Below the pieces are notes generated by a model, which saw only the letters and a program-made list of their open reading frames with translations, was not told the DNA's origin and did no database searches. From Solirubrobacter pauli (GTDB lineage: Bacteria; Actinomycetota; Thermoleophilia; Solirubrobacterales; Solirubrobacteraceae), in NCBI RefSeq assembly GCF_003633755.1, contig NZ_RBIL01000001.1, forward strand, positions 2,961,426-3,025,425: 64,000 bases of DNA, written 5' to 3'. Of the stretch, positions 10,185 through 32,408 are shown piece by piece. The translations under genes were made by a program, and so were the position numbers. Within the stretch, counting starts at the first letter, position 1. Each line of letters opens with the position of its first letter.

Positions 10185-10338
10185 GTTCGCATGCGGGCCG
10201 CCGCGCGGAGGACGTGCCGCAGACGCTCGCGGGCCAGGATGGCGTCCTCCGTGAGTCCGTTGCGCTTCTCCGCTTCTGGTCGGGCTTAACGAACGACGCG
10301 CTTGCGAGGCAGCGATGGCAACGACGAGAGGAGACGCT

Positions 10339-10629
10339 GTGAGCGGAGTGCAGATCCTGACGGTGGCCCAGGTAGCCGAACGCGTCCAGCTGAGTGCGGA
10401 AACGGTGATGCGCGCAATCCGCGCCGGCGATCTCGAAGCCTCGCAGCTGACGCGAGCGCGCGGGGGCTGGCGAGTCCGCGAGGACGCGATCGCGACTTGG
10501 CTGGAGACTCGAAGCAACCGGACGCGTGAAGTCCCCCTTGCCGACGTCACGCCGCCTCGAGCGGGGCTGCCTCGCCGGCCAGCACAACGTTCGACAACGC
10601 CGCAGACGAGTGGGAGACTGGTCGCCTGA
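10339..10629 (+). CDS. Excisionase-like helix-turn-helix protein
   Basis: 96 residues. GTG 10339 is preceded by GAGGAG at good spacing; ATG 10315 in frame is an alternative. The N-terminal 55 residues are a winged helix-turn-helix of the HTH_17/MerR-excisionase class: LTVAQVAERVQLSAETVMRA, then IRAGDLEA, GGWRVREDAIATWLE. The rest is a basic tail. Located 38 nt before the integrase, it is best read as the recombination directionality factor that favours excision. Confidence 0.8.
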   Translation: MSGVQILTVAQVAERVQLSAETVMRAIRAGDLEASQLTRARGGWRVREDAIATWLETRSNRTREVPLADVTPPRAGLPRRPAQRSTTPQTSGRLVA

Positions 10630-10667: not shown

Positions 10668-11879
10668 GTGCCGCGGGGCGTCGAGCCACGCTTGCGCCGC
10701 GGTCCTGACCGCGGATGGGTGTGGAAGTTCCGCGTGCGCTGGAAGGAGCCGGGTACCGGTCGGCGTCCGGTCGAGGAGTTCGACTCCGTCGACGACGCGC
10801 TCGACTTCCTAGCGCACCTCCGTCTCGCGAAGCGCCGCGGCGTCCTCGCCGATCTCACGCGCGGCGACACGTCTTTGGCGGAGTTCTTCGAGACCGAGTA
10901 CTGGCCCAAGGACGCGAAGCGGAACTTGGCCCTAAACACGCGCAAGAGCTACCTCTCGGTCTGGTATGTGCATCTCAAGCCGCGGCTCGGCCATCTGCAG
11001 ATGCGGCAACTCAATCCGCCGACCGTCCAAATCTTTCGGGAGCAGATGGAGGAGGACGGCGTTGGCACATCGACCACGAAGCGGGCGATGGCGATCCTGC
11101 AAGCCGTGTGCCGCTACGCGCTCAGTAAGGGCGAGATTGTCTCCAACCCCGTCAAGGACGTGCGCAAGCCCACCGTTCGACGGGCTCTGGCCGTCCACGC
11201 GATCGCGCCGGCGCAGGTCGAGACGCTGAGGACGTTGCTGCTCGACGGCTACGTCGAGTTACGGCCACAGGCGGACGGCACGGCGAAACAGGTCCGCCAT
11301 GCCCCCGACCCGGTCGCCGCCATGTTGGTGTCCTTGCTGGCGTATGAGGGACTGCGTCCCGAGGAGGCACTCGCGCTCGAGGACCGGCATGCGGGCAAGG
11401 CGACGCTGTTGATCGAGCAGAAGAACATCGACGGTCAGATAGAGGCGGGTCAGAAGACGGGCAAGCCGCCTCGGTCGCCGGCGCTGTGGGCGCCGGTCCG
11501 CACTGATCTCGCAAGCTACCGTCTGGCCACTCGCCGCAGAACGGCTCGAGACGGCCGGCAGTTCCTGATCCAGCGGGCGGACGGCGAACCCTGGCGAGAG
11601 TACGACTACCGCAACTGGCGGAAGCGAGTTTTCAAGCCCGCCGTTGCCGCGGCGGGCCTGCCGATCACCCGCCCCTACGACCTTCGTCATGCGTGCGCGA
11701 GCCTTATGATCCACGCCGGCAAGCCGCTGACGGAGATTGCCGAGCACCTTGGTAACTCCGTCGCCGTGCTCTCGCAGACATACTCACACGTGATCAAAGA
11801 CATGCGGGACGAGCCGTCAGCGCCCGTGTCGGAGACGATCGTGTCTGCTCGAGCCGCGAGCCGCTTAATAAGCGCCTAG
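10668..11879 (+). CDS. int: Tyrosine recombinase (integrase)
   Basis: 403 residues, GTG start. N-terminal arm-binding part, SAM-like core-binding domain around 65-165 (SYLSVWYVHLKPRLG, TKRAMAILQAVCRYAL) and a C-terminal catalytic domain. Catalytic residues visible: R230 (YEGLRPEEAL), R340 in YDLRHACAS, H360 (EHLGN) and the nucleophile Y372 (TYSHV). The first His of the usual HxLR box is Tyr (Y337), a tolerated variant. It integrates and excises the element by site-specific recombination. The xis-int order, both on the plus strand, is standard. The usual attachment site directly downstream was not recognised, and cargo genes follow instead. Confidence 0.92.
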   Translation: MPRGVEPRLRRGPDRGWVWKFRVRWKEPGTGRRPVEEFDSVDDALDFLAHLRLAKRRGVLADLTRGDTSLAEFFETEYWPKDAKRNLALNTRKSYLSVWYVHLKPRLGHLQMRQLNPPTVQIFREQMEEDGVGTSTTKRAMAILQAVCRYALSKGEIVSNPVKDVRKPTVRRALAVHAIAPAQVETLRTLLLDGYVELRPQADGTAKQVRHAPDPVAAMLVSLLAYEGLRPEEALALEDRHAGKATLLIEQKNIDGQIEAGQKTGKPPRSPALWAPVRTDLASYRLATRRRTARDGRQFLIQRADGEPWREYDYRNWRKRVFKPAVAAAGLPITRPYDLRHACASLMIHAGKPLTEIAEHLGNSVAVLSQTYSHVIKDMRDEPSAPVSETIVSARAASRLISA

Positions 11880-12180: not shown

Positions 12181-12445
12181 CCCCAAGTCGCGGGAGCGCG
12201 CGGGGGATACCGATCGGCTGGACGGGACTGCGTCGCGTATCGAGCGGAATGGCGGAAAGGGCCATCGTGCAACCTCGATCCGACGGTTGGCCGACGGCTT
12301 GCTCCATCGAGTTCGAGCCTGAGCCCGGACGGCCTACACGAAAGGCACGTATTGCTTAGCCAGCGTTGACCGAGGGAACCTACGGTGCTACAAGAACACT
12401 CCAACTTGCCGATAACTCTACTTGAAGCCGCAGGGGCTACTAGCC

Positions 12446-13246
12446 ATGATTGCCGATCTACCCGAGCCACAGCACGAGCACCTAGCTAGCGCGCCCCTTG
12501 AGCTCGCGGTCTGGCAGCTGCAGTTCTCGGAGCCAGCGGCGGTTCAGGACCCGGCTGTGGGCACGCAAGTCGCGGAAGCGTTGGCGAGCGACGGACACGG
12601 TGCCTTCCAGCTCACGCGGCTATCCAGCCAGATGATCTTCGCCTTCGCTTCAGGGCAGGCACCCCAGCCGCCTGAGTCTGTAGAGCCGGATGGCTGGCAG
12701 CTACGCAGAGGTCAACTGGTGGTCAATCTCAATCGACAGTCGCTGTCGGTGGAGACCACGGCGTACCAGGGCTGGGATCGATTCAGCGCAGTCTTCGGAG
12801 CGCTCTGCCGGGCTCTTGAGGTTTCAGCTGTCGATCTGCCGGGAGAGCAGCGTCTCGGGCTTAGGTACGTCGATCGGATCTCTTTGCCCGGTGTTCGGAA
12901 GCCGGCCGATTGGGAGGGTCTACTCGCCCCGTGGCTCGTCGCTTCGATGACGCATGAGCACCTCGGTGACGCTGTCTTGGCGGCGGCCGGTCAGGTCGAG
13001 CTTGCCGTCGAGGAAGGCTCGCAGGCGACGTTGCGCTATCGCGCATTCCCAGACTTCGAGCGCCGTGGACGACAGACTGTGATGCTGGATTTCGACACCT
13101 TCCGTCAGGGGTATCGCACTTTCAGTACCCAAACTATTCTTGACACGAGCAATCAATTCCACGATGTTGCGCATCGCTTGTTCGAAGCGTCCATCACCTC
13201 TGAGCTACGCGCAGTATTTGGCCGAGAGAAGGAGGCCTCGGCATGA
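12446..13246 (+). CDS. TIGR04255-like protein, first gene of a three-gene cargo unit
   Basis: 266 residues. The layout fits the sporadic TIGR04255 family: an opening APLELAVWQLQFSEP, a central segment on beta-rich ground (GQLVVNLNRQSLSVETTAYQ, split by turns), and the signature LGLRYVDRISLP near residue 145, then a C-terminal domain ending in a helix (VAHRLFEASITSELRAVFG). The family is found in scattered genomes, often in variable islands, and its biochemical function is unknown. Its stop overlaps the next gene by 4 nt, and GC content is lower than in the rest of the window, indicating transferred cargo. Confidence 0.65.
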   Translation: MIADLPEPQHEHLASAPLELAVWQLQFSEPAAVQDPAVGTQVAEALASDGHGAFQLTRLSSQMIFAFASGQAPQPPESVEPDGWQLRRGQLVVNLNRQSLSVETTAYQGWDRFSAVFGALCRALEVSAVDLPGEQRLGLRYVDRISLPGVRKPADWEGLLAPWLVASMTHEHLGDAVLAAAGQVELAVEEGSQATLRYRAFPDFERRGRQTVMLDFDTFRQGYRTFSTQTILDTSNQFHDVAHRLFEASITSELRAVFGREKEASA

Positions 13247-13920
13247 CGTTTGAACGGCCGCTACCAGAGCTGCTGTCGACTTCTTCTGAGTCGCCCGCGG
13301 GCGAAACGCGGTCGTGCTTTTACGCGAAGACGCTGCATCATCTCTACGAGGTCGCCGACGCGGCTTTCGCGAGCGGCGGAACGTCAAAGATTGTTCCCTT
13401 GAAGCTCGCGCCGCGGACCAAGTCCTCCGCGACGGCTGATCCCGAGGTCATTGCGTCGATGTCGGATGCGCCGGCTCTCCGCGCGCTTGAGCAGCTCCGA
13501 GGATGGCTACACCTGTCGTACGAGCAGCTAGGAGCCGTCGTTGGGATCAGTCCTTCGGTGATCTACCACTGGCGCCGGCGACATCGCGAGAATGCACCGG
13601 TCCGTCCTCGGGCGTCGTCGGTGGAGCAGCTCTGGCGCGTCCACTCTGCGCTCCGCGCGGTCGCGGAAGCACTGGACGGCGATGACTCTGGATACGGCGT
13701 GCAGATGTGGGCTAGATCGGCTCGTGATGGAGCGAGCCCGCTCGATCTTCTCCTGCACGGACGCATCGAAGAAGTCGAGAAGCGCGCGGGAACGCTGCTC
13801 TTCGAACGCGACACGCCGCTCCAGCCGCGTTGGCAGCTCGCGACGCCAGAATTCGATGAGGACGACAGTTCGCTTTCGCCGGGCCCGGTCGCTGAGTTTG
13901 AGGACTCCGACTTCGGGTGA
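13243..13920 (+). CDS. HTH protein with MbcA/ParS-like C-terminus, second gene of the unit
   Basis: 225 residues. The middle contains a helix-turn-helix: LRGWLHLSYEQLGAVVGISP followed by SVIYHWRRRH. Near residue 165 the segment GASPLDLLLHGRIEEVEKRAG resembles the toxin-binding end of Xre-MbcA-ParS antitoxins (a PLDLL motif before a V...L helix). No RES-type toxin gene is adjacent, so the partner would be one of the overlapping genes on either side. ATG overlaps the stop of the TIGR04255-like gene, and its own stop overlaps the GTG of the next gene. Confidence 0.6.
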   Translation: MTFERPLPELLSTSSESPAGETRSCFYAKTLHHLYEVADAAFASGGTSKIVPLKLAPRTKSSATADPEVIASMSDAPALRALEQLRGWLHLSYEQLGAVVGISPSVIYHWRRRHRENAPVRPRASSVEQLWRVHSALRAVAEALDGDDSGYGVQMWARSARDGASPLDLLLHGRIEEVEKRAGTLLFERDTPLQPRWQLATPEFDEDDSSLSPGPVAEFEDSDFG

Positions 13921-14825
13921 GCGGCGAAGAACGGCCGTCTTGGTCGCTTCAAGCGGGCGTTGACCCGCGTGAGTGGCCAGAGGCTGCACGGGAAGCAACC
14001 AAGCCGCTTCGACAAGGTTCCCTTGTCGAGCGGCCGCCTCTTGTCTACGCGGCCGACGCCGCTCATCCGATCCACGCCACCACCCGAGCGTGGGCGGGCA
14101 GCAGCAGAGCTTCGAGTGGCGTCGTAAGCGTCCAAGCTGAGAAGCTGCGCCCCGCGTACGGGCTGGTCGTCACCCAGACGTGTGACCTCGTCGAGGAGGG
14201 CACGCCGAAGCGGCCTTGGGTTCACATCGCCCCTGTCTACGCGCTCGACGGCGACAAGGGTACGGTCAAACAGATTAAGCGTGGACGGGGCTTTACCTAC
14301 CTCTGCCACGTGACCGGCCTGGAGGCTCCAGACGCTGGGATCTGGGTGGCCGACCTGCGTCTGCTAGTGCCCGTCGAGAAGGGCTGGCTCGTAGGGCGAC
14401 CGGCGCAGGCCGGGTTTGCCGACGAAGACGGTTACGATCGGCTTCGAGTGCAGCTTGCTGCGACAGTTGCGCGCAAAGCTTTTGCGACGGTGATCAACCA
14501 CCATGTCCTAGGCCCGACCGTGGACCTTCTGCGGGAGCTTGCAGGCGAGTACGAAGGGAATGACCCGATCGTAGATGTCGGGCTCCTGCTTGGCCGGTCC
14601 CGCCTGGACCCTCAGTATGCGCAAGTCGTTTTTATGCTCGATAGCGAGCTTAGTCCCGACCTCCGGACTCGGATACTCGACTGGTGGGAAACGACCGCCG
14701 AAGTCGCACGTGCGGCAGGACTCGAGACGCTAGTTCCACGATTTGTTTCTCTGGACGAGCTCAGCGCTCGCGAATATCGCGCGCTCGACCTACTGGACGC
14801 CCAGTCGTTTTCGCCGGACGACTGA
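13917..14825 (+). CDS. Unknown 302-residue protein, third gene of the unit
   Basis: GTG 13917 overlaps the preceding stop (GTGA). Not recognised. Conserved-looking features are a GLVVTQTCDLVEEG motif near residue 80 followed by WVHIAPVYAL, a beta-rich middle (FTYLCHVTGL, IWVADLRLLVPVEKGW), and a C-terminal helical half with RKAFATVINHHVLGP. The TQTCD motif, with Cys and Asp in a loop after a strand, could be an active or metal site. Tight overlap of all three genes implies equal dosage and joint function. A regulator plus two effectors is a typical shape of toxin-antitoxin or phage-defence modules; that is inference only. Confidence 0.55.
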   Translation: MSGEERPSWSLQAGVDPREWPEAAREATKPLRQGSLVERPPLVYAADAAHPIHATTRAWAGSSRASSGVVSVQAEKLRPAYGLVVTQTCDLVEEGTPKRPWVHIAPVYALDGDKGTVKQIKRGRGFTYLCHVTGLEAPDAGIWVADLRLLVPVEKGWLVGRPAQAGFADEDGYDRLRVQLAATVARKAFATVINHHVLGPTVDLLRELAGEYEGNDPIVDVGLLLGRSRLDPQYAQVVFMLDSELSPDLRTRILDWWETTAEVARAAGLETLVPRFVSLDELSAREYRALDLLDAQSFSPDD

Positions 14826-15047: not shown

Positions 15048-16295
15048 GTGACGCAAGAATTGCTACAGCGGATACTCGATCAGTACCGAGGTTCGCAGGA
15101 CTTCAACGGCTTGTATTTCGATGGAGCCTCGCCAGACGCGCGGGACGCAGCGTCCGGGCTAGTGCGCGACGGACTGGTTGAGATCGTGGCGGAGGAGGAC
15201 TTCCCGAACCCGCACATACGGCCCTGGCCATCGCGTCGAACTCGCGAACAGCAGGTGGCGTCACTCATGGAGCTTGACGGCACGGGCTACGGGGTTTGTC
15301 TGTACCCAACTCCCGAGGCGCTTGCTGCCAATCCGGCCGCCGAGGACTATGTGGACGAGCCATTTCGCCGCGCGATGGCCGACGGTCGTGGAAGTCTGGA
15401 ACTCGCGTACTTCAGCTTCGACGTGCTCGAGCAGTACCGCAACGACCCGCGGTTTAGCTTTCGCTTCTACGACTTCGGGGCCCAGACGGTCATCAGCGAT
15501 GACTCCTATGAGGACGAGAGCGAGCCGGAGCACGACAAGATCCTTATGGATCACATCGGGTTCGCCTACGACCTTTCCGACTACGACAAGGACGATCCGC
15601 AGTCGCCAATTGTGCGCCGGGTATGCGCGTTTTACGGGGACCTAGCCAAGCTCTCCCCGATTCATCAGCAAAGGTGGAGGACCTACCAGGTCCCTGACGA
15701 GCCCCTTCAGCCGCACCCGGTTTGGTGGGCACAGCAGGGTGGCCACTTCCCGGATGGCGTTGGGCCCTTCGAGAAGTTGTTCCACGAGCTCGACGCGCTG
15801 AATACGCTCTTCGACAAAGCCTTTGGCGCGAGCTTGCTGAAGTCCACCGAACGCCCGGCGGACCTCGGCTGGATTCTTAGGCCGTCACAGCGCGAGTGGG
15901 ATGCCTTCGTGCATCAGCTAGACAAGCTGCTGTCTGAGAATTTGGATCACAAGGCGCTGGATTCTGCTGGCGTGCCTCGAAAGGACGCTGCCCAGCAGAA
16001 CATTGGGAGTCTCAGGCGCTTAGGCGAGTTTCTCACGGCTAACGGCGTCGCCGAGGACGCGGCGAAGGCGGTTCTGAAGCCCCTCAGCGACGTCAGGAAC
16101 GCGCGGCAGAAACCAGCGCACACGTTGCGCAAGAACGTCAATGATCGATCTTTCGTACACCGACAGGTTGCGCTCCTCCAAGACCTCAACCTGAGTGTTG
16201 AGGCCCTCCGCCGATTCGTGCAGAGTCATCCGGCAAATCGGGAGTGGAGCGAGCCCGAATACCTCAAGGTCGGGGCGCGCGAGTATCGCTTCTGA
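15048..16295 (+). CDS. Unknown 415-residue protein with C-terminal R-x4-H motif
   Basis: GTG 15048 is chosen because of the -10 box 6 nt upstream and because upstream sequence is not protein-like. The first 270 residues are rich in aromatic and acidic residues (YFSFDVLEQYRND, FAYDLSDYDKDDP). The last third is helical and includes LSDVRNARQKPAHTLRK, with R353-x4-H358 preceded by R350. An R-x4-6-H in a late helix is the hallmark of HEPN domains, many of which are RNA-cutting toxins of defence systems; the same pattern can occur by chance. The gene is alone, ending 70 nt before the tail of an opposite-strand gene. Low GC relative to flanks supports recent transfer. Confidence 0.5.
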   Translation: MTQELLQRILDQYRGSQDFNGLYFDGASPDARDAASGLVRDGLVEIVAEEDFPNPHIRPWPSRRTREQQVASLMELDGTGYGVCLYPTPEALAANPAAEDYVDEPFRRAMADGRGSLELAYFSFDVLEQYRNDPRFSFRFYDFGAQTVISDDSYEDESEPEHDKILMDHIGFAYDLSDYDKDDPQSPIVRRVCAFYGDLAKLSPIHQQRWRTYQVPDEPLQPHPVWWAQQGGHFPDGVGPFEKLFHELDALNTLFDKAFGASLLKSTERPADLGWILRPSQREWDAFVHQLDKLLSENLDHKALDSAGVPRKDAAQQNIGSLRRLGEFLTANGVAEDAAKAVLKPLSDVRNARQKPAHTLRKNVNDRSFVHRQVALLQDLNLSVEALRRFVQSHPANREWSEPEYLKVGAREYRF

Positions 16296-16364: not shown

Positions 16365-17405
16365 CTACCTCAGATCCCGCTCGGCGACGATCCGGATCTC
16401 GAACCCTTCGCTATCTGACGATCGTGGGTCGACCTGTGGCCACCAATGTGACGGGCGAGTCTTGAAGACGCCGTGCGCAAGTGCCATCGGCCAGACGCCC
16501 CACTCGTCCAACAGGAGACCGTCCGTCGTCGGCGTCGTGTGCTGCTGGATGAACATCCCGCCGTTGGCATTGAAGCTTCCTGAGGTTGGGCACCAACGTT
16601 CGCGCCGCTCCGCATCGGGGCTTCGCCACGACGCCTTGTTGACGAGCACGTCATATGCCGCTTGTTCCATGCGATCGGTGACGGGTCTGACGTCGGCCTC
16701 CAGCAAGAACTCGTTTCGTGCGTCGGCGTGAGTTGCGGGATCTCGCATGGTCTCGAACCAGCCGACGAGCTCCGACCTGTCGTAGCCGAAGCGGCTGTGC
16801 AGAAACGCGGCCACCGGATCCGCTAGGCGTTTGGGCGGACATCTAAAAGCCCGCTCGAACAACCGCACGAACTCGCGGAACCGACCCATCGCTGACCGTT
16901 GGCCTAACGCCTCAACCATCAGGGAGAGTCCGTCGGCGCGGTCGCCCAGCTGTTGCAACACAGTCTCCGGCAAGTCGATCGTGTCCTTGGTGCGAATCTC
17001 GCGCTTCAACCTCCCACGCCGCAAACTCGTCTGTGTCGCGAGCCATCTTCGCCCTGCATCACCGGCACTGACAAGCACAGCCGGCGGCCACGGCGACGAA
17101 ATGTGTCGGCGGCGACCTTGCCCGACCGCGACCAAATTCGCCGCGAACTCGATCGCGCGCTCGGCCACGACGCGCTCCTTTTCGGGGAGGAAGACCTCTC
17201 CGCCACTGCCCTTCGGCGGATACTTCAGCGGGACGGCAGCCTGTACCAGGATCTCAGTCTGATGCTCGGACTCTTGTGCGACTGCGAACACGACTTCCGT
17301 ACCGTCGATATTGAGCGCCCAGTCCTTCCAGCGATCCGCGAGGCGCGGGGAGAACGCCACAAGTGCGAGTCGTACGAGCGCGAGATCGTTCGGCGGCACG
17401 GACAT
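16365..17405 (-). CDS. Unknown 346-residue protein with HEPN-like R-x4-H motif
   Basis: Convergent with the preceding gene. The N-terminal half is beta-rich, ending in SSPWPPAVLVSAGD; the C-terminal half is helical. It contains FETMRDPATHADARN, with R221-x4-H226, followed by a helix with MEQAAYDVLVNKASW. This arrangement (RDxxxH, then a bundle helix with AAYDVL) is what HEPN-type proteins show. The end of the protein has several tryptophans. No partner gene is obvious; the 415-residue neighbour carries a similar motif in an unrelated sequence. Candidate RNase or abortive-infection protein; function unproved. Confidence 0.5.
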   Translation of the reverse strand: MSVPPNDLALVRLALVAFSPRLADRWKDWALNIDGTEVVFAVAQESEHQTEILVQAAVPLKYPPKGSGGEVFLPEKERVVAERAIEFAANLVAVGQGRRRHISSPWPPAVLVSAGDAGRRWLATQTSLRRGRLKREIRTKDTIDLPETVLQQLGDRADGLSLMVEALGQRSAMGRFREFVRLFERAFRCPPKRLADPVAAFLHSRFGYDRSELVGWFETMRDPATHADARNEFLLEADVRPVTDRMEQAAYDVLVNKASWRSPDAERRERWCPTSGSFNANGGMFIQQHTTPTTDGLLLDEWGVWPMALAHGVFKTRPSHWWPQVDPRSSDSEGFEIRIVAERDLR

Positions 17406-32269: not shown

Positions 32270-32311
32270 CTCGTAATGAAGGGGTCCCCGGTTCGAGTCC
32301 GGGTGTCGGCT
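32270..32311 (+). other. Displaced 3' fragment of a tRNA-Thr(CGU) gene, likely attachment site
   Basis: The stretch reads as the 3' part of a tRNA: anticodon loop CTCGTAA (anticodon CGT at 32272-32274), TGAAG, variable GGGTC, T stem CCCGG / loop TTCGAGT / CCGGG, then acceptor strand TGTCGGC and discriminator T. The bases left of the loop do not pair with TGAAG, and no D arm is present, so the gene is broken inside the anticodon loop. A tRNA-type terminator follows. This is how the displaced end of a tRNA looks after a tyrosine-recombinase element integrates. The rebuilt full tRNA should lie left of the element, outside this window. Confidence 0.75.
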
Positions 32312-32317
32312 CCTCTC

Positions 32318-32343
32318 GAAAGCCTCGCGTTCGCGGGGCTTTC
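32318..32343 (+). terminator. Intrinsic terminator of the broken tRNA gene
   Basis: Stem GAAAGCCTCG paired with CGGGGCTTTC (one T-G pair), loop CGTTCG, followed by TCGTCGTTT. Six nt after the tRNA 3' end. Confidence 0.75.
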
Positions 32344-32408
32344 GTCGTTTGAGGGCACGTCTGCGCATCGCGCCTGACTTGATCTCTGGGGGGTGCTCGG
32401 GGGCGTTT

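Follow-up and report, generated by a model that had tools for sequence, protein, structure and literature searches.

Three overlapping genes at positions 12,446-14,825 of the window (the whole 64,000-nucleotide stretch analysed, from Solirubrobacter pauli) form a real, mobile and co-inherited three-gene module. Since widely differing bacteria carry this trio, its gene order unchanged, on their plasmids, prophages and genomic islands, we probably have here an immunity or toxin-antitoxin (TA) module that has not been described before. We give a probability of about 0.55 to the best-supported reading, a TA-like or anti-phage module that is mobile and regulates itself; the mobile location would also suit a cargo without a defence role.

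A compact operon in an island with conjugation genes

The first gene (12446-13246, + strand) encodes a TIGR04255 protein of 266 aa. The second (13243-13920, + strand) encodes a 225-aa HTH regulator of the Xre/MbcA/ParS-antitoxin type, assigned by a borderline PF20432 score and profile comparison. The third (13917-14825, + strand) starts with GTG and encodes an unnamed 302-aa protein, the proposed output protein. Both junctions are 4-nt overlaps (ATGA and GTGA); the ORFs are exactly those described in the initial annotation. For gene 1, the ATG at 12446 is favoured over a TTG at 12422, since the Svornostia homologue supports the ATG.

As the same annotation stated, an integrase lies in front of the trio. 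This tyrosine integrase (phrog_1, Phage_int_M; 10668-11879, + strand) ends 566 nt upstream of gene 1 and follows an excisionase-type HTH_17 protein (10315-10629, + strand). The trio had also been said to have a lower GC than its flanks. That holds against the left side (0.63-0.64 across the trio vs 0.68-0.72 leftward), but the low-GC stretch continues to about 17 kb and is therefore no peculiarity of the trio. Behind the trio lie two orphan genes. One (15051-16295, + strand) encodes a 414-aa protein with one relative (33%) among 198 genomes and a conserved RQ[KR]PAH, which by eye resembles the HEPN Rx4H motif; the other (16368-17405, - strand) encodes a 346-aa protein without a family and with one short, weak match among the same number of genomes.

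An intact tRNA-Thr(CGT) gene is found about 19 kb upstream of the window (L109:981-1055, L109 being the 20 kb upstream). Its 3' half and flank are repeated at 32270-32356 (+ strand), with the first 52 nt identical and 80/90 overall. This duplicate is the likely right end (att) of an island, and the two copies likely mark the ends of about 51 kb. The ends were set by this duplication, not by empty-site comparison; the empty site, sought through relatives, returned paralogous matches only. Between the tRNA-Thr copies are ParA, a T4SS coupling protein, SSB, Prim-Pol, ParB, ArdC, the excisionase-type HTH and the integrase, together with a TraG/VirB4-like ATPase just below the Pfam cut-off. The island looks like an integrative and conjugative element (ICE) carrying the trio as cargo. 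The integrase sits in the middle of the island and not at its end, so the island may be composite.

Upstream of gene 1, a promoter- or operator-like block (12364-12412, + strand) is common to the window and Svornostia. Both carry TTGA, ACCTAC and an identical GTGCTACAAGAACACT. Read by eye, TTGACC-17 nt-TACAAG in this block can be taken as a -35/-10 pair with 17-nt spacing, and the imperfect palindrome GTGCTACAAGAACAC (12385-12399, + strand) lies over the putative -10. A consensus promoter scan flagged no promoter at 12364-12412. At other loci (L007 and L009), 11-nt spaced direct repeats were seen by eye.

Recurrence and co-inheritance of the trio

Searching genome contigs with gene 3, we found five loci, all with TIGR04255 and HTH genes in front. 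The trio of Svornostia abyssi, which belongs to the same family as S. pauli (genome 7.1 Mb), shares 59, 56 and 64% identity with window genes 1, 2 and 3, respectively; the four other loci share about 30%. A broad gene-3 profile run over 396 actinobacterial genomes gave 16 loci in 15 genomes. These were found by gene 3 alone, and a TIGR04255 gene lies just upstream on the same strand in 12 of the 16 (G000, G314, G383, G452, G579, G370, L133, L134, L135, L138, L139 and L140; the L140 locus is incomplete, and gene 3 of L133 contains a stop). In three of the remaining loci (L132, L136 and L137), the upstream gene is of the MerR-like/HTH_17 type. In the last (L141:778-1974), a gene-3-like core is fused behind a receiver-like domain (PF00072, weak, E 0.037), and the fusion sits behind a histidine-kinase-like ORF. 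A gene-3 relative without TIGR04255 also occurs in the family of the window's genome (L022 and L023).

The same gene order is present on cyanobacterial, alpha- and gammaproteobacterial plasmids, including conjugative ones (Chroococcidiopsis, Rhizobium etli, Sinorhizobium, Sphingomonas, Acinetobacter), and on plasmids within Actinomycetota (Paenarthrobacter, Kocuria). Three viral contigs also carry trios: the one in L066 follows an endolysin, that in L067 has a tail gene nearby and that in L057 adjoins a serine integrase. Scans of viral contigs with the window-type gene 3 and with the L064 gene 3 gave no match, and neither did a scan of INPHARED phages with the R. etli gene 3. One further viral contig has a low-GC TIGR04255 gene (L052:7725-8543) inserted where morons typically lie, with the phage terminase gene on one side and the portal gene on the other.

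In four loci (L042, L050, L053 and L056) the TIGR04255-HTH pair precedes a protein with HPC in place of QTC, and in L044 the third protein has HDC. The HPC proteins may or may not be homologues of gene 3; hhalign aligned their motifs with those of the full gene-3 profile at 22.6%. In all, more than 20 loci have these three genes in this order, a recurrence beyond chance. Orthologues are thus not always single or confined to core loci, as the 12 of 16 gene-3 loci adjoining TIGR04255 show.

Such company raises the idea that the trio controls or maintains its mobile element (transfer, excision or lysogeny control), with gene 2 as a repressor, gene 1 as a co-regulator that binds a ligand or DNA, and gene 3 as an accessory factor. 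The trio adjoins xis and int in the window, has integrases near it in L058 and L044 and the serine integrase in L057, and resides on plasmids. Gene 2 is a repressor-type HTH protein, and TBPs, which bind DNA, are among the fold matches of gene 1. Yet the trio occurs in unrelated settings (ICE, conjugative plasmids, prophages and a chromosome without visible mobile genes), its position within the elements varies as for cargo, and its flanks differ. We consider element control unlikely, if the strongest of the alternatives to a TA-like or anti-phage module.

The three genes also travel together. In 17 loci their order is constant and the spacing ranges from -29 to +40 nt, mostly -4 to +12. Divergences across the 17 loci correlate between genes 1 and 3 (r = 0.88), 2 and 3 (0.79) and 1 and 2 (0.73), with Mantel p = 2e-4 each and median identities of 18-24%; this correlation shows co-inheritance, not physical contact, and plain vertical descent would also yield it. 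The trio is under purifying selection. Between the window and Svornostia, dN/dS is 0.11, 0.29 and 0.10 for genes 1, 2 and 3 (dS is saturated in the first and third); in L007/L008, a less diverged pair, the values are 0.09 and 0.08. Overall, dN/dS is about 0.1 for genes 1 and 3 and 0.2-0.3 for gene 2.

The three proteins and their predicted roles

Gene 1 had been called TIGR04255-like, and it scores 96 bits against the NCBIfam model (cut-off 30), residues 13-258 covering model positions 2-251 of 252. Sixteen sequences share the invariant residues Y107, R136, G138, R140, D215 and D217 (R136-x-G-x-R140 and D215-x-D217). Predicted from 16 sequences (pLDDT 86.7, pTM 0.83), the structure consists of two similar halves made of sheets and helices and is confidently modelled as a curved-sheet fold like those of TBP, guanido kinase and AdoMetDC. 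These structural neighbours are tied (Z 6.8-8.0; rmsd 3.8, 167-181 residues aligned), and in that range they may share a common arrangement alone. Foldseek gave the AdoMetDC prozyme at E 3e-6 but TM 0.3; the best BFVD match was an unnamed protein (E 3.5e-8, TM 0.46). A PDB sequence search with TIGR04255 gave no match.

TIGR04255 genes are present in just 15 of 198 genomes. Gene 1 is not reserved for the trio: TIGR04255 proteins also stand by themselves in Mycobacterium-like L040, L041 and L043, and beside other partners in L046-L048. In L046, L047 and L048, divergent TIGR04255 genes are followed by a different partner of about 170 aa that has a GGxQxxWH motif, and an HTH is lacking; these loci may represent a second kind of TIGR04255-based module. 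On a Rhizobium plasmid (L063:4186-9168), a TIGR04255 gene and two other unknown partners lie directly behind a multiubiquitin/ThiF/DUF6527 operon.

Gene 2 scores 25.4 bits against the Xre-like HTH PF20432, just below the cut-off of 25.8, and 8 of 23 gene-2 family members match this model at E<=0.05. PF09722 (Xre_MbcA_ParS_C) gave no direct match in gene 2 and does not figure among the families listed for 23 relatives at E 0.05. When the family profile (23 proteins) was compared with PF09722-bearing proteins, the probability was 97.5% over the HTH and C-terminus together and 84% over the C-terminal part by itself, against 0.4% for control profiles. The earlier impression of an MbcA/ParS-like end is therefore right as a remote similarity, and by profile comparison gene 2 resembles Xre/MbcA/ParS antitoxins. 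Its type and the conserved promoter block suggest that gene 2 autoregulates the operon.

Gene 3, noted at first as an unknown protein with a TQTCD motif, indeed carries this motif at residues 86-90 and falls into no family: Pfam, NCBIfam, PADLOC and PHROGs gave no match, and a PDB sequence search gave one chance match only. The family core is QG[D/S]...Q-x-C-D. In the window protein, QG[D/S] occupies residues 33-35 (S35, not D), followed by T-Q-T-C-D, D146 and R186. Over 18 sequences, Q33, G34, Q87, C89 and D90 are invariant and D146 and R186 nearly so. Structure prediction, which the initial annotation had proposed for this protein, was carried out with five sequences and gave a poor model (pLDDT 55), too poor for use of the motif region. 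A likeness of the C-terminal part to MNT nucleotidyltransferases (Z 7.6) was rejected: GS...DxD is absent by eye and the Z score is in the noise range.

We take gene 3 as the output protein, because the same core sits under other sensors (a MerR-like HTH, a receiver domain). The product of gene 2 would bind the operon's own promoter and probably restrain the system. Gene 1, whose curved-sheet protein has two lobes and an invariant R-x-G-x-R/D-x-D patch, may be the sensor or adaptor for a trigger and, once the trigger is recognised, would act via gene 2 and/or gene 3. Gene 3, with its QG[D/S]...QxCD core, one invariant cysteine and, in some members, a further C-terminal domain, would then provide the output; its pairing with TIGR04255 plus HTH, a MerR-like HTH or a receiver domain suggests that its activity is released on the trigger.

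The same features could also describe a stress- or metabolite-responsive operon, in which gene 1 binds a small ligand, gene 2 regulates and the cysteine of gene 3 belongs to the active site of a metabolic or redox enzyme. The invariant cysteine and aspartate of gene 3 fit such a role, as do the likeness of the gene-1 fold to guanido kinase, AdoMetDC and similar ligand-binding proteins and the occurrence, behind a histidine kinase, of a gene-3 core fused to a receiver-like domain. Against this, the distribution is very patchy (about 4% of genomes), no metabolic neighbour is common to the loci, and the tie to mobile elements is strong, which makes a metabolite operon slightly less probable still than element control. 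A further proposal makes the gene-3 core a MazF/PemK-like RNase toxin, gene 2 its antitoxin and gene 1 a third, regulatory component. The motif order (GD ... sheet ending before C-D ... P ... D ... K) parallels that of PemK, and hhalign gave 8% vs 0.1-0.5% for controls. The 8% is not significant, the RP motif of PemK is absent from gene 3, and gene 3 has no PF02452 match, so we regard a MazF/PemK-like RNase as improbable, the least probable of the readings weighed.

Relation to known systems

Neither the window trio nor its relatives gave a significant match in PADLOC-DB 2.0.0 (PADLOC 2023), the best scores of the HTH proteins being Csa3 (E 0.035) and RmrA (E 0.015). A search of freely available journal articles found no paper on gene 3, the trio or TIGR04255/CHP04255/IPR026349. 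The initial annotation had also held that the usual RES toxin is absent, and indeed neither the trio nor the integrase nor the two genes that come after the trio (15051-16295 and 16368-17405) gave a RES match. Its suggestion that the other two genes are novel stands in part. Gene 1 belongs to the existing TIGR04255 family, which is known and also found alone or with other partners, so that the new part is the fixed trio, above all gene 3.

Close to one HPC-form trio (L042), ThsB (Thoeris, 5e-115), AbiEii (3e-97) and a PDC-M30A-like protein lie in the same 11-kb contig stretch. Other TIGR04255 genes neighbour a type I MTase (L064), a type I REase (L039), a type IIG enzyme (L045) and an E1-like protein (L063). 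These defence neighbours were picked by eye and without a background rate, and only L042 (HPC form) and L064 among the loci listed have the full three-gene arrangement.

More tentatively, at somewhat less than even odds, the loci may represent a widespread undescribed three-component immunity/TA class with a TIGR04255 curved-sheet sensor, an Xre-type regulator and a QxCD output (a new enzyme family), present in at least three phyla and in prophages and with swappable outputs (QTCD long, QTCD short, HPC, HDC). If the trio is a defence or TA system, it would show what TIGR04255 does, a family that is found across bacteria and prophages and has a name but no known role; it would also add a new family of output proteins (QGD...QxCD) seemingly controlled by several kinds of sensor. 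The trio is compact (2.4 kb), and its relatives on rhizobial and cyanobacterial plasmids are open to testing in ordinary laboratory strains.

Gene 1 is a clear member of TIGR04255, an NCBIfam family of unknown function whose name is silent on partners and function; only some members belong to such a trio. To MazF/PemK toxins, the gene-3 core is only faintly and non-significantly similar, and it lacks their key motif. The RES-Xre systems (ParST/MbcTA) are alike in the tight operon and the mobility, and probably in the Xre-like HTH of gene 2 (just below the model's cut-off) and its MbcA/ParS-type C-terminus (a remote similarity by profile comparison). They differ in that the trio lacks a RES toxin and has three genes, among them one for a TIGR04255 protein and one for an unrelated output. 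In arrangement, the trio can be likened to CapK/CapS, a regulator pair described upstream of varied immune operons (PMC13373217): a conserved sensor/regulator pair stands before differing outputs, which in the trio are the QxCD long, QxCD short, HPC and HDC forms.
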